From Salinigranum halophilum (lineage in GTDB: Archaea; Halobacteriota; Halobacteria; Halobacteriales; Haloferacaceae), in the NCBI RefSeq assembly GCF_007004735.1, contig NZ_SSNL01000005.1, forward strand, positions 496,001-560,000: a stretch of 64,000 nucleotides of DNA. The letters run 5' to 3'. The position numbers and the translations under genes were made by a program. Under the pieces are notes generated by a model, which was not told where the DNA came from, did no database searches, and saw only the letters and a list, made by a program, of their open reading frames with translations. Shown here in pieces: positions 1-10,325 of this stretch (positions are counted from its first letter, which is position 1; every line of letters begins with the position of its first letter).

Positions 1-948
1 TACTTCCGTGGGGAAGGCCGCCCGCCACTCAACTCCGAGCGCATGACTGGTGGGACGCCCTTCGAGGAGGTCCAGACCATTCTGGACCAGCTCGACGACC
101 CGTGGCAGGAGGACGAAGACGATGCCCTCCTGCACAGCCTCGCCGACGACGGCCTCGTCGATGAGGATGACATCCCGGACATCATGGAGCTCCGTGATGT
201 CCTCGCGGCAGAACTCGACGAGGACAGAACTCCGCGGACGGAGTTCCGCGTCGCCCTTCGTGCGGCGTCCCCCGAGGTGCGAGAAGGGCTCGCCTGGCTA
301 CTCGCGTACCGTCCCAACACGGTGACCGCCACCAGCATGATCAGCCACGGGGTGGACGTCGACCGGTTCAACATGATGGTGTTCTTCGGAATGCCGCGTG
401 CCACTGCTGAGTACATCCAGTCCAGTTCCCGGGCTGGTCGCGCACACCCCGGGCTTGTGTTCAACATCCTCCACCCCATCCGGGAACGTGACCTGAGTCA
501 CTACCACTTCTTCGAGAAGTACCACCAGTTCCTCGACCGGCTCGTCGAACCCGTCTCGGTGAACCGATGGGCGAAGAACAGCGTCAAGCGGACGCAGCCG
601 GGGCAGTTCATGTCGCTCCTGCTTAACCACTACATGTACACCGACGACGGGGAGCTGATGTACTTCGGTGACCGGGCCGAAGAGTTCCTCTCGACGGTCG
701 ACGACGTCGACCTCGAGAACCTCCTCGTGGACATGTACGGTGGGTCGGAGGTCCCACCGGAGTTCAGCGACGACGTCCGGCAGCTCACCCGGAGTGCGAT
801 CTCCGAGGTCCAGTTGAGTGACCGACAGTGGACGAGCGAGCGCCTCCCCGGTCCTCCGATGCGGAGCCTGCGTGACGTCGACGAACAGCTCCCGATCGAT
901 CCTGAGTGGAAGTACAAGGACATCCTCAGCACCTACAACAACCGATAA
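1..948 (+). CDS. drmA: DISARM helicase DrmA, C-terminal part (gene runs off the left edge)
   Basis: The frame is open from base 1, so the 5' part, including the helicase motor's Walker motifs, lies outside the window. What remains is the second RecA-like lobe and tail of an SF2 helicase: a motif V-like stretch TSMISHGVDVDRFN and a motif VI-like stretch EYIQSSSRAGR. The tail is acidic and has no recognisable nuclease domain. It is followed after 2 nt by a DUF1998 gene and then a phospholipase D-type gene. That is the drmA-drmB-drmC core of DISARM, which is why I call DrmA rather than a generic helicase. DrmA is known as the DNA-loading/translocating subunit of this anti-phage system. The family call rests mainly on gene order, since the diagnostic N-terminus is not visible. 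Confidence 0.85.
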   Translation, partial: YFRGEGRPPLNSERMTGGTPFEEVQTILDQLDDPWQEDEDDALLHSLADDGLVDEDDIPDIMELRDVLAAELDEDRTPRTEFRVALRAASPEVREGLAWLLAYRPNTVTATSMISHGVDVDRFNMMVFFGMPRATAEYIQSSSRAGRAHPGLVFNILHPIRERDLSHYHFFEKYHQFLDRLVEPVSVNRWAKNSVKRTQPGQFMSLLLNHYMYTDDGELMYFGDRAEEFLSTVDDVDLENLLVDMYGGSEVPPEFSDDVRQLTRSAISEVQLSDRQWTSERLPGPPMRSLRDVDEQLPIDPEWKYKDILSTYNNR

Positions 949-950
949 CA

Positions 951-2909
951 ATGTCAATGGAACGTAGCAAGTCGCAGGTACTCTACCAGTTCCTGCCCGA
1001 GAACACGTTCGACTACAGCGGTCAGCGGGGCATCTGGAAGACCACGCGACTTGAGACGAGCGATGCGAGTGGTACCGTCAGCAAGGACTACATCCTCGGC
1101 CGCGTCCTCGCACGCATCCGAAACTGGGACGGGGGCCAGAACGGCTTCGTCTCGAACAACACCGACCACTACCACTTCGGCGTCCCCGAGGGTGTCCGGG
1201 CCGAACCGTTCCCCACGACCTACGAGTGCCAGAAGTGCGACAAAGCGCACGGGTACTACACCGCAGACGAGGTCAAGAACAACAACCCTGATCTCACCTG
1301 TGAGCGATCTGGCTGTAACGGGAACCTCGAACAGTACCAGTTCGTGAGTGTTCACACCTGCGGAGAAATCCGACGCCTCTACCCGCAGAAGTGCCCAAAC
1401 CACGGGGACCAGCACGTCATACTCAACCGCCGAAACAGTCAACGTGTCCGGAACTTCCACTGGAGCTGTGAGGTCGGTAACTGTTCATGGGACACTCCCA
1501 TCCGGAACTACCAGAACTGCAATTGCGACTACATGGCCCCCGAAGCAGAGGAGAATGACGGGATGTACACGACGGTCCACCGGGCCGGGAGCGTCTTCTA
1601 CCCCCACTACCTCTCGACAGTGAACCTGCACACCGCAGGCATCGGGCACCTCCGGAACTCTGAGGACGGAGCAAAGAGAGCGATCGCGAAGCTGTTCGGA
1701 CTGTCAGATGCCGGGTCGCTTCAGGACGTCAGTCTGCACCAGCGAACCGGCCAGGTCGAGGTAGACGACGAGAAGGTGGTGGAGATCTACACCACACACG
1801 ACGACATCACCACGCTCGACCAGGCACGTGAGCACCTCCGTGAACAGGGGACGCTGGAGAGCCAGACCATCCTCGAGCGTCTCGGCGAGACACTCGCTCT
1901 CGATACGGACGGCGAAACCTCCGAGCTCACCGAGGCTGGTGACGAGATTCTCCAGTACGTCCTCAGCCGCGAGTCGCTCACGACGGATACACTGGACGAA
2001 CTGGAATCGGACGCCCGGGACCGTGGGTTCACCGACAAAGCGGACCGCATCAACAGCTACCACGACGACCTGGAGGCGCTCGGATTCGACGACGTCCGCG
2101 TCATCGAGGACTTCCCTGTACAGACGTTCGTCTACGGGTACACCCGTGGCAGCCGTGAGGAAGGCGAAGCACGGATCAACGCGTTCTCACAGAGCGCGAG
2201 TGACGGTGACGGAACGCCGATCTTCGTCGACACGTCCGAAACAGAAGCGGTTCAGTTCGACCTAGACCCCGCACAGGTCCTGCTGTGGCTCGCACTCAAC
2301 ATCCCCGAGACGAGCGACCCGACCGCGGTGAACGGAGACATCGTCCTCCCAGAGGTCAGCGGCCGCGACGACGCTGCACTCGAGCACGCGAGAAGCGAAA
2401 TCGAATCGCTCTCCAGCGATGAGCAGTGGGCGTTCCTGCTCAATCACCTCGCGCCAGTCGAACGGTACGGCAAGTTCCAGACGGACCTCGACGATTCGGT
2501 CGAGGAGCAGGTCACAGAGCACGTGTTCCAGCTGGTCCACACGCTGAGTCACATCCTGCTGAAGCAGGCCAGTACCATCAGTGGATTCGACCGAACGAAC
2601 CTCAGCGAGTTCCTCTTCCCGCGCGCGCTCTCTGTCGTCATCTACGCGAATAACCGGGAAGAGTTCAACATCGGCGGGATGCACACGATGGTCGAACAGC
2701 AACTGGATAACCTCCTCGGACAGGCCGAAACGCACGGCAACGAGTGTGTGTACGACCCGGTCTGCTCACAGCGCGGTGGGGCCTGTCTCTCCTGCCTGCA
2801 CGTGAGTGAGATCAGCTGTTCGTACTTCAACCAAGTCCTCTCTCGGGACTTCCTGTTCGGGAGTCGACCGAACACTGACAAGGACATCGCCGGATACTGG
2901 ACACTGTAA
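951..2909 (+). CDS. drmB: DISARM protein DrmB (DUF1998)
   Basis: A 652-aa protein of the DUF1998 family, the partner that binds the DrmA helicase in DISARM. The N-terminal half has a zinc-finger-like set of cysteines (CQKC about 30 residues before a CERSGC motif). The C-terminus has the family's cysteine-rich block (CSQRGGACLSC followed by a Cys six residues later), preceded by a helix containing LVHTLSHILLKQA. The frame is open further upstream. I chose the ATG two bases after the drmA stop because an earlier start would overlap drmA by about 14 codons. The close spacing implies co-transcription and translational coupling with drmA. All cysteine clusters look intact. Confidence 0.9.
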   Translation: MSMERSKSQVLYQFLPENTFDYSGQRGIWKTTRLETSDASGTVSKDYILGRVLARIRNWDGGQNGFVSNNTDHYHFGVPEGVRAEPFPTTYECQKCDKAHGYYTADEVKNNNPDLTCERSGCNGNLEQYQFVSVHTCGEIRRLYPQKCPNHGDQHVILNRRNSQRVRNFHWSCEVGNCSWDTPIRNYQNCNCDYMAPEAEENDGMYTTVHRAGSVFYPHYLSTVNLHTAGIGHLRNSEDGAKRAIAKLFGLSDAGSLQDVSLHQRTGQVEVDDEKVVEIYTTHDDITTLDQAREHLREQGTLESQTILERLGETLALDTDGETSELTEAGDEILQYVLSRESLTTDTLDELESDARDRGFTDKADRINSYHDDLEALGFDDVRVIEDFPVQTFVYGYTRGSREEGEARINAFSQSASDGDGTPIFVDTSETEAVQFDLDPAQVLLWLALNIPETSDPTAVNGDIVLPEVSGRDDAALEHARSEIESLSSDEQWAFLLNHLAPVERYGKFQTDLDDSVEEQVTEHVFQLVHTLSHILLKQASTISGFDRTNLSEFLFPRALSVVIYANNREEFNIGGMHTMVEQQLDNLLGQAETHGNECVYDPVCSQRGGACLSCLHVSEISCSYFNQVLSRDFLFGSRPNTDKDIAGYWTL

Positions 2910-2952: not shown

Positions 2953-3897
2953 ATGACTGACGACGAATCTGACTCGACGTGGTTGCCCCTTGCTATCGCC
3001 GAGTACGTCGATCGCGACGAGCAACTCCTCTCCCAGCTCGAAGGCCTGTTAGTCCTGTCTGGCGGCCGCGGTGAACTGGTGACGCCCGCAGAGATTGCGA
3101 ACAGAACAGATGTCTCCGTTGCCGCAACGACCGACACATTTCGACAGCTCTCACAGACTGACGCGGTCACTCGCGAGTCGTTCAGAACGAGTGTCGAGGA
3201 CAGCCCCTACCGGATCAACGTAGAGGTGTGCCGGAGGGTATTCGAGACAGCCCGCTACGCTGCGCGCAGTGTCAACGCATACGAAGCCCGTCAACCACCG
3301 GCGACAGAGGCAACGCCGCTGGTAACGTTCCCCGCTGACCCCGCCTTCGATGAGGTGAGCCCGACCTCGTTCGGGATGTCATGGCTGATGCCTACCCTTA
3401 CGCGACAGATCAAGAGGAGCAACACAACGATCACGCTGGTAGCACCGTTCTTCGAGAGAGACGGGTTCGCTCATCTCGAAGACGTGTTGCTTGCAGCCAT
3501 GGAGCGAGGTGTGTATATGAGGATAATTTCCCGGTATCTCACAGACACAGACTCGTACAACTACTCGGTCCTGAAGTCGTTCGCAGAGAGAGCGGATGAG
3601 CGCAACCTCGACCGGTCACTTCTCAGGTGTGTGGACTATACGCGCTGGAGTACTGGAACACCCTCGACACAACGTCGTCAAGATGGTGCTACCCCTGCGT
3701 TTACTCTACACGCCAAGATCATGCTCTTCGACGATAAAGCAGCGTACGTCGGGAGTGCGAACGTCACAGACTACGGATTTGAGCACTATCTCGAAACCGG
3801 TGTGCTCCTCGAAGGTCCACCCGTCGAGGGCTTCGTTGACCTCGTAAGCTTCCTACTGAACTCGGAGGCCGCGACAACGGTATCTCTAATTGATTAA
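2953..3897 (+). CDS. drmC: DISARM protein DrmC (phospholipase D-like)
   Basis: A 314-aa protein with one complete HKD motif near the C-terminus (LHAKIMLFDDKAAYVGSAN), typical of single-HKD PLD-fold nucleases that work as dimers. The centre (about residues 145-200) has the other half of the PLD fold, TLTRQIKRSNTTITLVAP. The N-terminal 90 residues look like a winged helix (TPAEIANRTDVSVAATTDTF). In DISARM, DrmC accompanies DrmAB and in some systems is dispensable. I start at the ATG at 2953; the frame extends upstream, but that would overlap drmB by about 35 codons. The 43-nt gap to drmB suggests the same transcript. An AT-rich TTATAT lies only 14 nt upstream, too close to be a leaderless promoter. 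Confidence 0.88.
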   Translation: MTDDESDSTWLPLAIAEYVDRDEQLLSQLEGLLVLSGGRGELVTPAEIANRTDVSVAATTDTFRQLSQTDAVTRESFRTSVEDSPYRINVEVCRRVFETARYAARSVNAYEARQPPATEATPLVTFPADPAFDEVSPTSFGMSWLMPTLTRQIKRSNTTITLVAPFFERDGFAHLEDVLLAAMERGVYMRIISRYLTDTDSYNYSVLKSFAERADERNLDRSLLRCVDYTRWSTGTPSTQRRQDGATPAFTLHAKIMLFDDKAAYVGSANVTDYGFEHYLETGVLLEGPPVEGFVDLVSFLLNSEAATTVSLID

Positions 3898-4031: not shown

Positions 4032-6497
4032 ATGGCTGATGAAAATCGGACGCTCTACGATACCTACATTGATTACGACCACGTTGACCTCGATATAACA
4101 GCGGTTGCAGACCACGTCGCGATGCAGCAGATCGCGGGCGACAATTTCGAGATGGAAAAGAGAACGTTGGAAGAGATTCTCTCTGATCGGAGATTTAACG
4201 TTCCGGAATACCAGCGACTGTTTTCATGGAAAGAAAAGCACCATCGACAACTGTGGTCTGACCTCCAGCAGTTCGTGGAGGCCGATCTCGTCAAGGACTC
4301 CGACATCTCTGACGTGTTCTTTAGTTCGATGTACTTCGCTGTCGACAAAGACAGCAACACACACGAAATTATTGACGGCCAACAACGACTCACATCGGTC
4401 AACATCCTCTTACTCTCTATCCTCGAGGAACTCCGTGCCCTCAACGCCGAGTCGATCCGGCAGGAGACTGTCAGTCGACTACGGGATGGGAGTATCAAGC
4501 AGATTGAGTCCCTTCTCTACCGCTTCGAGAATCCGCTCAAGGGAGACGTCCCGCGTCTGTCTCTCAACAAGCACGATGATGACGACGACGCAGACCTAGG
4601 GTTCTTCGAGGCCCTCATGCTGGGGCCTGAAGCCCGACTAGAGTATCTCTGTTCAGACGAACGTGAATACGTCGACGGTCGCCGCGGTGATGCGACTAGA
4701 ATATCGGACCTCGTTGAGGAATTCCGAATTAGCGAACAAGTCGTCGAAGAACAAGACCCTGATACGTCCTCTTTCTCAAATTTCACGCCGGTATATGACT
4801 CGAACTGGCGATTGCTCGACGCCTACAACTTCTACAAAGACCGCGTTCAGGAGGTCGTTGATACGGCAGACGATACCGACAGCAAGGCGCTAGCGCTGAT
4901 TAATCTCGGGCACTACATCCAGAATTCGTATCACGTCGGCGAGTTCATTATCCGGAACGCGGCACCCGACTTCCGGATGCAAATCTTCAAGATTCTCAAC
5001 GACCGCGGGCTGGAACTCACCAAGATCGACCGTATCCGAGCGGCGGTCGTGAACGCGTTCTTCGATGCCGACGACCGACAAGAGTACGTGGATAAGTGGG
5101 AAGATATTGTGGTCGCATTCGCCACCGATGTCGATCAGATTGACGACTATCTCTCCGTCTACCTCAGCATCGTCGACCCCGAAATCGAGACGGTAGGTGA
5201 AGCCAGTGCGGAACTCACCAACGCGTTCGCGACGCGCAATCTCGAGTCCGATGTTCGTCCACGATTGCGCCATCCGGACGACGCTCGAGACTTCCTCGAC
5301 CATGCTCACGACCTCGTTCAGTACTACAAACACATCACTAATTCAGCGCTGGATCCTACCGACCTCGCTCTCACAGAGGCACACGAGAAATGCCAGGAGG
5401 TGCTGGTTCGTCTCAACGACCAGCGGATGAATCAGTGGCGTCCATTTGTTTTGGCGCTGTATCACCACACGGTGACGGACCCGACTGCGAGCGGTGAACA
5501 GCTCTACGAAGCACTGGACGCGGTCGAGAAACTCAATTTCAGACGGCTCCTCGTTGGGGAAGATCCGAACATCTTCCAAGAAATATTCATCGAAACCGTC
5601 CATCGATTCTCGCTTTCGCCCGAGAAAGAGGATCGTGAGAACGTGTACGGTGACTCGTGTCGCTATCTGATTGACGAGATGCGGTCGTCGAACCCGTCGA
5701 TGTTTTCAGATAGGTTCGTGGATATTGTCACTCAAGCACAGGCATGGAACCCTCAGACCGCGAAATTGTTGTTCGGGAAAGTCGCGAACGAACACTTCCG
5801 TGAGGACGGAATGTACGTCGAACGGCGTCTGAACATGGGAAGCATTCATCTCGAACACGTACTCCCACAGAGTCTGATACATGACGTTGACAACCCGATA
5901 TGGCTGACTGAATTCTTCCAACTCGAGGACAACGAGGTAGAGATCGCAGAAGCAATTCAGACCTATATCAAGTTGTGTCGCAGGGACGGCGAACTCGACG
6001 AGGACAAACGTCAACGTCGAGACAATATCAAGGAGTTTATTTCTCAGCGTTTTGTCAACGACCTCGGGAATTTCCTCCTGCTCCGCGACAGTGACAACAT
6101 CAAGGCGAGCAATCTCCATCTCGCCGAAAAAATGCCTCAGTACTTCGATACCGGGGAGGACTTCCGGAGCATCCTCCCGAACCGATATTTCACCGAAACA
6201 GAGGGAGTAGTGGACAGGGACAAACTCGAATCCCTACTTGAACAGTCTCAAGCAATCAAGGCAGGAGAGCGTGACCAGATTGATTCAGCCTTGGCAGACT
6301 ATTTCAATTCTCTTTGGACGTACGAGGCGTTGCAGGACAGACGTATCGGTCTTCTCGAGGATACACTCGATATTGTGGAGTTTGACCAGCTCGATGATGA
6401 GTTCGGACTCGCGTCCGATCGTGATGGAGTACGTGAACAGATCCGCACGCAGACTGAAGGGGAGTTTGTGAAACGCCTCTCGCTTCGGTCGCTCTGA
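4032..6497 (+). CDS. DUF262-DUF1524 protein (GmrSD/SspE-type nuclease) embedded in the DISARM locus
   Basis: An 821-aa protein. The N-terminal DUF262 domain (about residues 40-150) has VPEYQRLFSWKEKHHRQLW and the nucleotide-handling signature IDGQQRLTS. The C-terminal DUF1524 domain (about residues 590-700) has an HNH-like core, IHLEHVLPQSL, followed about 70 residues later by LGNFLLLRDSDNIKASN. This pairing is that of GmrSD type IV restriction enzymes and of SspE, where NTP binding controls DNA cleavage by the HNH-like domain. It is not a standard DISARM subunit, yet it sits between drmC and the methyltransferase on the same strand. By eye the gene is more AT-rich than its surroundings, which suggests separate acquisition. 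Its target (modified or phage DNA) cannot be read from sequence. Confidence 0.85.
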   Translation: MADENRTLYDTYIDYDHVDLDITAVADHVAMQQIAGDNFEMEKRTLEEILSDRRFNVPEYQRLFSWKEKHHRQLWSDLQQFVEADLVKDSDISDVFFSSMYFAVDKDSNTHEIIDGQQRLTSVNILLLSILEELRALNAESIRQETVSRLRDGSIKQIESLLYRFENPLKGDVPRLSLNKHDDDDDADLGFFEALMLGPEARLEYLCSDEREYVDGRRGDATRISDLVEEFRISEQVVEEQDPDTSSFSNFTPVYDSNWRLLDAYNFYKDRVQEVVDTADDTDSKALALINLGHYIQNSYHVGEFIIRNAAPDFRMQIFKILNDRGLELTKIDRIRAAVVNAFFDADDRQEYVDKWEDIVVAFATDVDQIDDYLSVYLSIVDPEIETVGEASAELTNAFATRNLESDVRPRLRHPDDARDFLDHAHDLVQYYKHITNSALDPTDLALTEAHEKCQEVLVRLNDQRMNQWRPFVLALYHHTVTDPTASGEQLYEALDAVEKLNFRRLLVGEDPNIFQEIFIETVHRFSLSPEKEDRENVYGDSCRYLIDEMRSSNPSMFSDRFVDIVTQAQAWNPQTAKLLFGKVANEHFREDGMYVERRLNMGSIHLEHVLPQSLIHDVDNPIWLTEFFQLEDNEVEIAEAIQTYIKLCRRDGELDEDKRQRRDNIKEFISQRFVNDLGNFLLLRDSDNIKASNLHLAEKMPQYFDTGEDFRSILPNRYFTETEGVVDRDKLESLLEQSQAIKAGERDQIDSALADYFNSLWTYEALQDRRIGLLEDTLDIVEFDQLDDEFGLASDRDGVREQIRTQTEGEFVKRLSLRSL

Positions 6498-6665: not shown

Positions 6666-8909
6666 ATGTCCGGACCGGCCACTTCTTGCGGTTCTCCATC
6701 TGAGCAGGTGCGTTCTGCTCCAGAAGCTGAACGCACATTGCACAAACAGTTGCTTCTGGATAACCTCGATTTTCTCATAGATACACTGACCGCAGAGCAC
6801 GTTCGGCGTCAACAGCAGCCTCCTGCCGGCTGTCCCCGTGCCACCCCCGAAAACATCGCTCGAAATCAGTCCAAAAGCGGGGACCCCTGCCGGTACCACG
6901 CTATCCAAGCGGAGAGTAGCGAGCCTGACGGGGAGTGTCCATGTGGCGACCCGCTCATCGAAAGCGACGATCCACTTGACACCGTCGCTGCGGTCGTCCT
7001 TGGGAAACAGACGACATCCCCTTCAAAACGGTTCTTCGACCGGATTCCGAGGAAGACGGTAGCGAACCTTCGCGAGGAGTATGGGACTTGGGAAGACATC
7101 GCAGCGCTGGATCGGAAAGACCTGCATGAGGCAGTCTGTGCTGCCAGTCCTCGAAAGGGGGTAAGCACGGAACGGATCGATTGCTTGCAATTGCTACTTG
7201 AGGCAGTTCGTGAGACACGCTATACAGAGGGCACGACTCTTTGTAGTTTCTCAAGAGTCCAGTACTCAACCTATGTGACATTCCTCCAAACCCTTCCGAG
7301 GATCGGAGAGCAGGACGCGTGGTGGATACTTCAGACCGCATTTGACAAGCCAGTTTGGCCCGCAGACCCGCTGATTGATGAACTACTGGTCTCGCTGGGG
7401 TTGCTTGCTCCTGATCTCCCGCCAGAATCGACTGGTCGTCACACCGAACTCGAGGAGGAACTGATCGACCGCCACGTCCCTATTCTGTACCGAGCGCTCG
7501 CCACCCATGCTGTCAACTCGGACACCGCTAGCTGTGGTGATAACTGCGAAATACGGAAGTTCTTGCTAACATACCGGCTCGAGGAACAACAAAAGGAGTG
7601 TTATGGGCCTGTGGTCGTCGACCTGTTCGCCGGAGCAGGAGGATTGTCACACGGTCTTGCTCGGGCGGGATACGATATCCGGTGGGCGATTGATATCGAG
7701 CCCGATGCTGTTGCGACATACCGCCTGAACCATCCGGGGATTCCACATCAGAATGTGGTCTGTGGCGACGTGAGGGAAATCGATTTATTCGCAGCAATTC
7801 GGGAAGTGGCGCCCAATCCGGATCTTATCGTAGGGGGGCCTCCTTGTCAATCACTCTCCCAAGCAGGATACCGATCCCGTCGAGCGAAAGACGACGACTA
7901 CAGCGTGCTTGACGACGACCGGACATCCCTGTACACGAAATATGTCGAAGCTGTCGACGAGCTTCGTCCGAAGGCTATCGTGATGGAGAATGTGGAAGGT
8001 ATGGTCAACAAAGTCGGTGATACGGACGTACGCGTCATCGACTGGATAATTGAGGACTTAGAAGCTCTTGGTGAGAACGGAGAAGGGTATCAGGTCTGTT
8101 TCCGTCTCCAAGATATGACTGAGCTCGGAATTCCGCAGGAACGTGAACGTGTTCTGCTTGTCGGAATTCGGAACGATCTTGCCGTCAGTGAAAACGAGGC
8201 AGAGGACCTTCTGAATAATCTCAAGATAATAGATGACAATCGGACAATCCGACAGGGGTTGTCTGGACTTCCACGTCTACGTCGTGGGGAAGGTGGACGC
8301 GTCTTGGCAGAGATTGGCCGAGGGTCAAAAAGCCAGTACGTGAAGCAGAACGGCCTCCACAAGGGAACCGAGCTCTGCTTCAATCACCGGGCACGTGAAC
8401 ACCCGATGGAAAAAGATAGAATCCTGTTCGAGGAAGGGCTGCAGCCGGGAGACACTGGCTGGGACGTCAAGTACAATTCTGATGGGAAGTACGCCGAGTA
8501 TATTGAGTACGATGTGGGAACTGCCGACAATCCCCGCTTCCGAGACAAATATCGGAAACTCGAATGGTCGAAGCCATCACCGACAATAGTCGCTCACCTC
8601 GCTAAGGACGCGAATGGGTTTGTACTACCCGACTACTACGAATGCGCTCGTCCGGACCCTGAACGTGCAGATCCTAGGCGAAACCGAGGAATCACTCCCC
8701 GGGAGGCGGCGAGGTTGCAATCGTTCCCGGACCACTATATTTTTCTCGGGCCGTTTACCAGCTGGTTCCGTCAGATAGGGAATGCAGTACCTCCAGTAGC
8801 AGGAGAATTGATTGGTGAGGCTCTGCTGGTCATACTGGCCGATAATCTTGGGGAGATTGCTCCGAAGGGAAGGCGGTGTTCAGTCGCGGAGCTGGCATCT
8901 GACGATTGA
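6666..8909 (+). CDS. drmMII: Cytosine-5 DNA methyltransferase with N-terminal endonuclease III-like domain (DrmMII position)
   Basis: A 747-aa protein, long for the family. The C-terminal 430 residues hold an apparently complete C5 methyltransferase: motif I DLFAGAGG (about 319), motif IV GPPCQ with the catalytic Cys (about 391), motif VI MENVEG, motif VIII QERERV and motif X GNAVPP. Residues about 100-300 match the HhH-GPD fold of endonuclease III: DPLDTVAAVVLGKQTTS, then LPRIGEQDAWWILQTAF and PADPLID. The catalytic Lys position of EndoIII is Gln here, but the catalytic Asp is kept. The four-Cys iron-sulfur loop is reduced to CGDNC. The region before it has further Cys pairs. In DISARM the C5 methyltransferase protects self DNA. 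The start follows the TATA box at 6636. Confidence 0.85.
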   Translation: MSGPATSCGSPSEQVRSAPEAERTLHKQLLLDNLDFLIDTLTAEHVRRQQQPPAGCPRATPENIARNQSKSGDPCRYHAIQAESSEPDGECPCGDPLIESDDPLDTVAAVVLGKQTTSPSKRFFDRIPRKTVANLREEYGTWEDIAALDRKDLHEAVCAASPRKGVSTERIDCLQLLLEAVRETRYTEGTTLCSFSRVQYSTYVTFLQTLPRIGEQDAWWILQTAFDKPVWPADPLIDELLVSLGLLAPDLPPESTGRHTELEEELIDRHVPILYRALATHAVNSDTASCGDNCEIRKFLLTYRLEEQQKECYGPVVVDLFAGAGGLSHGLARAGYDIRWAIDIEPDAVATYRLNHPGIPHQNVVCGDVREIDLFAAIREVAPNPDLIVGGPPCQSLSQAGYRSRRAKDDDYSVLDDDRTSLYTKYVEAVDELRPKAIVMENVEGMVNKVGDTDVRVIDWIIEDLEALGENGEGYQVCFRLQDMTELGIPQERERVLLVGIRNDLAVSENEAEDLLNNLKIIDDNRTIRQGLSGLPRLRRGEGGRVLAEIGRGSKSQYVKQNGLHKGTELCFNHRAREHPMEKDRILFEEGLQPGDTGWDVKYNSDGKYAEYIEYDVGTADNPRFRDKYRKLEWSKPSPTIVAHLAKDANGFVLPDYYECARPDPERADPRRNRGITPREAARLQSFPDHYIFLGPFTSWFRQIGNAVPPVAGELIGEALLVILADNLGEIAPKGRRCSVAELASDD

Positions 8910-9260: not shown

Positions 9261-10325
9261 TCAGGCCAGCCGACCCGTCAGCACCTCTGCGACCTCACGC
9301 GTCCCGTACCGTCCGTTGTAGGCCCCAGCCACGTCTCGAGAGTATCCACTCACCTTCGACTTCGACGTCGGCACGACTGCACTTGCCGCGTCCGCGACGT
9401 CCTGCTGAGTCATCGCCTTCCCCTCGGTCAACCGGTCAGCCACATACACCGCCGCAGCCGCAATCGTCACACGTGCCGTCCCTGGGCCGATACACGCCTC
9501 GTCAGCCAACTCGAGGAGGAACTCGCCGACCCGCCTGAGTTCGAGACACACATCGAGCGACAGTCCCTTCTGCTCGCCCAGCACCTCGACGACTGCGTCG
9601 ACCGCCCACGCCTGGGTTGGAGGCACCTCGCTCACCAACCCGAGTTCACACCGCAGCTTCCGCGCGGCTGCACACAGTCGCTCGTGCGACGTCTTCGCGT
9701 GGACCGCGACCTCCTTGGTCGTTCGCCGGAACCCAGACTGGCTCGTCGCCACGTACACTGCCCCAGCTGCGAGCGCCTCCCACCCCATCCGACCACCCGG
9801 AAGCCGCTCCTCCGAGGCCTGTTTCAACAACGCCGCCGCGTCCGCCGCGACGACGTTCGGGAGTCCGAGATTGCCGACGATCATCTGGATGTCACGGAGG
9901 CCTTCGTTGAGTCGAATCGCCCGCTTCGACTCCATCTGGAAGCGCTTGTGTCGCATCCGCAGCCGCCCGAACTTGTCTTTCTGCGCCTTCGTCAGCGCGT
10001 TCCCGTACCCATCCGAGGAGAGGAAGAACGTCGTGTGTAGGCCTTTGTCCACACGAAGCGACGTCGTCGTCTCGAGGCACCACTCAACGTGTCCCGACCC
10101 GACCGCACCCTGCTTGTGCAGACTGGGGCTCATCGCCCGTCGAAGGGCGTCCTCGTCAACGACCAATCCACACGTCTCACACACCGTCTCGATCGACTCA
10201 TGAACCAGCCGACCACCGCACTCGTCACACCGCGTCGCCTGCGCTGCTCGCCCGACCGCCCGCGTTCGCGCCTGTTCGTCAATCTGTTCCGAAGCTTCTT
10301 GTCCGATTGCGTTGTTACTAGACAT
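9261..10325 (-). CDS. tfb: Transcription initiation factor B (TFB paralogue)
   Basis: A 354-aa archaeal TFIIB homologue that recruits RNA polymerase to TBP-bound promoters. An N-terminal zinc ribbon has CDECGG and CETCG. It is followed by a linker/B-finger-like segment (KGLHTTFFLSSDGYG, then KFGRLRMRHKRFQ) and two cyclin-like repeats, each ending in an alanine-rich helix (ALAAGAVYVATSQ and TIAAAAVYVADRL). It is somewhat longer than the usual roughly 320 residues because of an N-terminal extension. Haloarchaea carry several TFBs. This one sits alone among palindromic repeats beside a defence locus and a HerA-type gene, so it is probably an accessory paralogue rather than the housekeeping one. 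No nearby gene appears to share its transcript. Confidence 0.93.
   Translation of the reverse strand: MSSNNAIGQEASEQIDEQARTRAVGRAAQATRCDECGGRLVHESIETVCETCGLVVDEDALRRAMSPSLHKQGAVGSGHVEWCLETTTSLRVDKGLHTTFFLSSDGYGNALTKAQKDKFGRLRMRHKRFQMESKRAIRLNEGLRDIQMIVGNLGLPNVVAADAAALLKQASEERLPGGRMGWEALAAGAVYVATSQSGFRRTTKEVAVHAKTSHERLCAAARKLRCELGLVSEVPPTQAWAVDAVVEVLGEQKGLSLDVCLELRRVGEFLLELADEACIGPGTARVTIAAAAVYVADRLTEGKAMTQQDVADAASAVVPTSKSKVSGYSRDVAGAYNGRYGTREVAEVLTGRLA

Follow-up and report, generated by a model that had tools for sequence, protein, structure and literature searches.

The cytosine-5 methyltransferase DrmMII of a haloarchaeal DISARM locus, encoded in the window (the whole stretch of 64,000 nucleotides analysed here), is fused at its N-terminus to a domain of the endonuclease III (HhH-GPD) fold preceded by four conserved cysteines (Cys4). 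On balance, we favour the view that this domain has decayed catalytically and is kept, together with the Cys4 site, as a DNA-reading module, while Mig-like enzymes carry out repair in relatives. 5-Methylcytosine (5mC) as a self mark is mutagenic. The fusion links an antiviral epigenetic system with base-excision repair, in that the methyltransferase bears a repair-type fold. It opens two questions to testing: do DISARM hosts bear a cost of deamination and repair it, and can a methyltransferase use a decayed glycosylase to read DNA? DISARM methyltransferases, HhH-GPD domains and Mig companions are all known; in the open-access papers searched, we found neither the permanent fusion of an HhH-GPD domain to a C5-methyltransferase nor a Mig-like companion within DISARM loci.

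The fusion gene and its DISARM locus

The fusion gene is the DrmMII gene of a DISARM locus, with drmA, drmB and drmC beside it. The genes concerned and the parts of the fusion are the following:

1-948 (+), 3' part of drmA (SF2 helicase), a gene that starts about 2.86 kb before the window; PADLOC DrmA at 1e-149 for the whole gene
951-2909 (+), drmB (DUF1998 family); PADLOC DrmB at 1.3e-53; start set as in orthologues
2953-3897 (+), drmC (PLD nuclease); Pfam PLDc_2 at 1.5e-12, PADLOC DrmC at 5.5e-13; start from orthologue comparison
4032-6497 (+), GmrSD/DUF262 (type IV-like restriction) gene; Pfam GmrSD_N at 2.6e-25, GmrSD_C at 1.4e-7
6666-8909 (+), fusion gene, DrmMII of the locus; 747 aa, Cys4 extension + HhH-GPD + C5-cytosine methyltransferase
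6717-6965 (+), N-terminal extension, aa 18-100; C56, C75, C91 and C93, putative metal (Zn) site
6966-7601 (+), HhH-GPD (endonuclease III-type) domain, aa 101-312; from profiles, model, Foldseek and dN/dS
7608-8840 (+), C5-methyltransferase domain, aa 315-725; every catalytic motif found

The ATG at 6666 aligns with a methionine in all 20 orthologues, and the frame stops at 8909. The C-terminal part of the protein matches Pfam PF00145 at 2.7e-59, TIGR00675 above its cut-off and PADLOC DrmMII at 1.1e-64, and it carries the motifs DLFAGAGG (residue 319), PCQ (394), ENV (441), QxRxR (491) and GNAVPP (705). Motifs I (FxGxG), IV (PCQ), VI (ENV), VIII (QxRxR) and X (GNxxxP) are near-invariant over the 20 fusion sequences. 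The first-pass annotation of this DNA had described an endonuclease III-like domain fused to the N-terminus of a cytosine-5 methyltransferase, and this was borne out, all 20 family members being fused and the methyltransferase complete; it placed the gene correctly but overlooked both the DISARM context and the extension with C56, C75, C91 and C93.

Upstream of drmA lie a divergent drmMI-type adenine methyltransferase gene, a gene with AspBHI_N and HNH domains and a drmD-type SNF2 helicase gene. DISARM is reported to use DrmMI and/or DrmMII and to be stimulated less by methylated DNA (PMC9142583); the fused methyltransferase would mark self DNA for this system. The AspBHI_N + HNH gene (L034:1640-2683, +; contig 487640-488683), of a methyl-directed restriction type within a locus that itself makes 5mC, is flanked by the drmMI- and drmD-type genes, lies about 7.3-8.4 kb before the window starts and is also found in L036. 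The GmrSD gene occupies the site where relatives have the Mig-like gene described below; it is accessory, and a place in the DISARM core was ruled out by its absence from this site in 19 of 19 relatives. GmrSD/DUF262-type genes are present near haloarchaeal DISARM in three genomes (window 4032-6497; L124:3427-5250; L132:12266-14479), those of L124 and L132 being only weakly similar.

The gene drmB was found in 19 of the 20 genomes with the fusion versus 53 of 394 genomes overall (hypergeometric 2e-17, kinship ignored), the exception being G092 (locus L045), which has no drmB anywhere in its genome. Three loci (L046, L047 and L049) have a more distant drmAB set, and the upstream gene in L046 matches DrmE_C slightly below the cut-off; the fused domain accompanies two drmAB lineages (DrmA/DrmB ~30% and >54% identical). 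A further 20 haloarchaeal drmB loci are devoid of the domain, most of them with an ordinary C5-methyltransferase nearby, which indicates that the enzymes with the fusion are a sub-lineage among the DISARM methyltransferases of haloarchaea. The strong DISARM link would also suit a domain that has lost contact with DNA and through which the methyltransferase docks on DrmAB, DrmMI or the Mig-like glycosylase. However, its occurrence with two drmAB lineages, and once without drmB (L045), gives no clear sign of a tight interface specific to DrmAB, and we regard such protein docking as rather unlikely.

Other genes were noted around these loci. A protein of ~910 aa (L039:5849-8581, -; L045:6975-9704, -; 41% identity between them; counterparts similarly placed in L040-L043) is encoded beside drmA or, where drmB is missing (L045), in the vicinity of the fusion gene; it has a weak HATPase_c_3 match in L039 and is possibly a new DISARM accessory. 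In L045, L048, L050, L052 and L053, a second, unfused C5-methyltransferase gene (420-490 aa) adjoins the fused one, and the unfused enzymes of these five loci and of L115 are 46-60% identical. The window's own genome (L002) encodes a C5-methyltransferase of 448 aa at contig 482209-483555, ~20 kb upstream of the fusion gene. The Zn-ribbon and repeat pattern, assessed by eye, suggest that a gene downstream of the fusion (window 9261-10325, -) encodes transcription factor B (TFB).

Fold, distribution and selection of the N-terminal domain

The N-terminal 312 residues of the window protein match no Pfam family above cut-off; PF00730, whose curated cut-off was not reached, matches just one of the 20 fused domains (E 0.004). 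NCBIfam NF053634 (DR2438-type monofunctional glycosylase) matches all 20 (best 6e-8, window 0.0045), and a search of the PDB with the family profile retrieved D. radiodurans EndoIII-1 at E=1.7e-5, its catalytic Asp aligned gap-free with Asp234 ('PvWPadplvd' vs 'PVFPVDTHVH'). An AlphaFold model of the N-terminal part made from the 20 sequences had a pLDDT of 83 and a pTM of 0.83, and when it was compared with the PDB using Foldseek, HhH-GPD glycosylases accounted for 50 of 50 among the matches listed. The best of these were EndoIII enzymes (4.5e-5; TM-score on target ~0.6); EndoIII, MutY, OGG1 and Mig were all among the top matches, with DrEndoIII-1 and -3 first and Mig.MthI (1kea) at rank 12. 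Structure prediction followed by structural search, the check proposed with the first-pass annotation, thus recovered the HhH-GPD fold. The C-terminal half was poorly modelled in the full-length protein (mean pLDDT 70). In a tree, the fused domains group together as a single clade, and the Nth-like, Nth, MutY and Mig-like proteins all fall outside it, a placement made unsure by long branches; an origin by duplication of the Mig-like gene was not supported, given this separate clade and subject to the same long-branch warning.

The N-terminal domain is present in 20 of 394 Halobacteria genomes, namely that of the window and 19 other haloarchaea. The 19 full-length orthologues share 35-82% identity over the N-terminal part and have frames of 745-848 aa, all fused. 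Profile searches returned fused genes only in 394 genomes of the order, and three fused genes plus three shorter frames (263-330 aa, 3.5e-11 to 2.5e-9) in 394 genomes of the phylum; we take the shorter frames to be Nth-like proteins and not solo copies of the domain. A genome-contig scan yielded 10 loci and a set of 72,556 plasmids three records, all haloarchaeal and none from elsewhere, and none was found in viral contigs.

In close pairs, the dN/dS of the HhH part is ~0.08-0.15 (dN 0.03-0.12, dS 0.23-1.3), for example dN 0.109 and dS 0.749 between the window and L035, 0.114 and 1.309 between the window and L036, and 0.043 and 0.541 between L039 and L042. These pairwise values mostly exceed those of the methyltransferase part; a dN/dS of ~0.1 indicates that the domain is under purifying selection and not drifting. 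A chance match or frame artefact was ruled out by the 20 intact orthologues, this ratio and the fold. In the model that we favour, haloarchaeal DISARM DrmMII would have permanently acquired an HhH-GPD domain at its N-terminus, with a Cys4 metal site as its cap.

Putative metal sites and the catalytic signature

The cysteines of the extension (C-x18-C-x15-C-x-C) are conserved in all 20 sequences at C56, C75 and C93 and in 19 of them at C91; L052 has Ser aligned there, with a Cys adjacent. The extension, in which AlphaFold places helices at 20-32 and 34-47, is predicted to form a metal site, presumably for zinc. Within the HhH part, P103, L104, W142, W219, W220, K228, P229, W231 and P232 are near-invariant over the 20 sequences, as are E263, R269, R276, F299, R304 and Q308 further on. 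The invariant W219, W220, K228, P229, W231, P232, R269 and R276 differ from the invariants of catalytic relatives, a second point in favour of protein docking. Three further elements bear on catalysis:

7296-7325 (+), degenerate HhH hairpin PRIGEQDAWW, aa 211-220; Q216 at the position of the lyase Lys, WW219-220 invariant
7365-7367 (+), Asp234, aligned with the catalytic Asp of EndoIII/MutY; D in 17/20; final residue ahead of helix 235-244
7506-7547 (+), H281-x8-C290-x3-C294, residual ligands of the cluster loop; lost jointly in two orthologues

The canonical hairpin LPGxGxxTA is not preserved: PG occurs in 18 of the 20 fused domains and the second Gly in three, and R212 is peculiar to the window sequence, 18 of 20 having Gly there. 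At the lyase position we found Q, D, S, G, A, N, T, E, R or H, and Lys in none of the 20. Asp234 is kept in all 11 relatives nearest to the window and replaced by G in L048, N in L051 and S in L052, the rest of the domain being conserved in these three; since each of the four residues seen at this position is suited to the start of a helix, structural retention could explain this column. The [4Fe-4S] loop C-x6-C-x2-C-x5-C is reduced to C-x3-C plus H281. The pair C290 and C294 ('CGDNC') is kept in 17-18 of 20, and H281, C290, C294 and Y77 are jointly absent from L051 and L053, both of which retain the N-terminal Cys4; this pattern suggests that H281, C290 and C294 make up one linked site, distinct from the N-terminal one.

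In the same alignment, eight Nth-like proteins and the genome's own Nth retain Lys, Asp and Cys-rich loops, and its own MutY and eight Mig-like proteins retain Tyr and Asp. With Lys in 0/20, Asp in 17/20, the second Gly lost and the Fe-S loop reduced, the catalytic features of the fused domain are eroded where the controls keep them, a contrast that is suggestive rather than decisive, as the comparators are less diverse per group than the fused set. The fused domain is net acidic, a point against a DNA-reading module, though comparators of catalytic type are acidic too. The first-pass annotation had recognized the order of EndoIII blocks, and the fold was supported; the 'KQTTS' block is unconserved, GKQ being common to three close relatives only, and a reading of it as the intercalating-Gln motif of EndoIII was rejected. 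It rightly reported Gln for the lyase Lys, although Gln is one of ten residues seen there, and the loss of most iron-sulfur ligands, C290, C294 and H281 alone remaining. The catalytic Asp that it described as kept is present in the window and 16 others but gone from L048, L051 and L052, so that its own ground for refutation, an Asp unconserved among homologues, applies to part of the family. Its comparison with a monofunctional glycosylase such as MutY was not upheld, in view of the Asp losses (3/20), the missing second hairpin Gly and Fe-S ligands, and the retention of Asp by the comparators.

An active monofunctional glycosylase would remove T or U from the T:G or U:G pairs that deamination produces at its own methylated sites and unite methylation and repair in one protein. 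Lys is likewise missing from Mig.MthI and MutY, and Asp is present in 17 of 20 including the window, which keeps this explanation alive for the window protein. However, the loss of Asp in three otherwise conserved domains, the missing hairpin Gly and the disrupted Fe-S loop argue against it, as does, with the uncertainty of long branches, its position apart from Mig and MutY in the tree; overall, activity seems improbable. Excision of bases at unmodified or phage-modified sites, leaving abasic sites as with R.PabI-type enzymes, appears very remote. Such restriction enzymes exist (PMC10273834), and a defence by a 5hmC glycosylase has been reported (PMC13160076), but neither paper names HhH, the catalytic residues are eroded in the fused domain, and DISARM already has a helicase and a nuclease.

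For the decayed module that we favour, cleavage of glycosidic bonds has most likely ceased, and the domain would be retained for DNA binding or base inspection, holding or positioning the methyltransferase on DNA. Its EndoIII groove might read local duplex geometry, for instance a flipped, mismatched or hemimethylated base. Base reading, which the first-pass annotation had also proposed, is possible and is the version that we prefer.

A Mig-like glycosylase in relatives and comparison with known systems

An intact, separate gene for a Mig.MthI-like protein (~260 aa) was found in seven of the 20 fusion loci (L035, L037, L038, L041, L042, L047 and L048), or in 11 when broken copies are counted (disrupted in L049, split in L040, fragments in L039 and L051). 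It is mostly divergent to the fusion gene, with a spacing of -34 to 154 bp between the longest ORFs. Among DISARM loci without the fusion, L115 has an intact copy and L127 has pieces. The intact genes are:

L035:14047-14826 (-), Mig-like gene
L037:5401-6243 (+), Mig-like gene
L038:5527-6303 (+), Mig-like gene
L041:5549-6340 (+), Mig-like gene
L042:5672-6481 (+), Mig-like gene
L047:12962-13738 (-), Mig-like gene
L048:5606-6388 (+), Mig-like gene
L115:18715-19494 (+), Mig-like gene, locus without the fusion

The association with the fusion gave Fisher values of 0.02 for intact genes (from 8 vs 1) and 0.002 with remnants (from 12 vs 2), both slightly optimistic after recounts of 7 and 11, and with kinship ignored. 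The protein matches PF00730 at 9e-18 and the solved Mig.MthI (1kea) at 7e-30, is nearest to MutY and Mig.MthI, and has an intact Cys4 cluster and Tyr/Asp but no MutY C-terminal domain. Residues that discriminate the two enzymes are A50 and L187 in Mig.MthI and V45 and Q182 in EcMutY, and Mig.MthI has a role in the removal of deaminated 5mC (PMC2714593). In the Mig-like proteins, the V45 site holds S, G or A and never V, and the Q182 site holds L (F in L041) in seven of eight, the L047 motif being unmatched. The gene is a candidate T:G glycosylase for 5mC damage.

T:G mismatches arising by deamination of the 5mC mark would then be repaired, in relatives, by this divergently encoded enzyme. A methyltransferase with an attached repair fold, together with a separate repair enzyme in relatives, suggests that marking and damage repair are managed together. 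Against the decayed module stands the absence of the Mig-like gene from about half of the other loci and from that of the window, whose own genome shows MutY- and Nth-like matches only; the fusion gene in a genome devoid of drmB (L045) also counts against it. The absence of the Mig-like gene at the window's locus favours an active glycosylase, as does the recurrent pairing of m5C methyltransferases with Mig-like glycosylases, whose genes lie beside or near each other on a Thermus and two haloarchaeal plasmids. An apparent Mig-methyltransferase fusion on the Thermus plasmid was rejected: the glycosylase match starts at the end of the annotated methyltransferase gene, indicating two adjacent reading frames. 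Among the 20 loci, no correlation was seen between loss of Asp234 and presence of the Mig-like gene; L048 has lost Asp and has an intact copy and L052 has lost Asp and has none, so that Asp loss is untied to the companion, which speaks against an active domain. In a tentative extension that we hold to be unlikely, a single polypeptide would write 5mC, detect the deamination thymine of its own mark and, in lineages that keep Asp, that of the window among them, perhaps excise it; if true, the immune mark and its mutational cost would be handled within one enzyme.

Compared with known systems, the fusion protein shares with DrmMII of DISARM its methyltransferase domain, the adjacent drmA, drmB and drmC, and the drmMI- and drmD-type genes upstream. 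However, the DrmMII models that match it best, which span 422-491 positions and align from close to their beginning, are without the N-terminal Cys4 and HhH-GPD parts, and no such extension is present in C5-methyltransferases from other DISARM loci of haloarchaea. With DrEndoIII-1 (4unf/8a5f) and the DR2438-type monofunctional glycosylase, the domain has in common the HhH-GPD fold, the helix order and the Asp position; unlike these enzymes, it has lost the Lys, the second hairpin Gly and the four-Cys Fe-S loop, and it has gained the N-terminal Cys4 element and the methyltransferase. DrEndoIII-3 (4uob) has high DNA affinity with undetected EndoIII activity (PMC9268735). It has the same fold but, in contrast to the fused domain, retains Lys, Asp and the Fe-S cluster, and it sets a precedent for an EndoIII fold of this kind. 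Mig.MthI (1kea) also shares the HhH-GPD fold; however, it is a standalone enzyme with intact Asp and Fe-S cluster, and resembles the separate gene of the relatives and not the fused domain.
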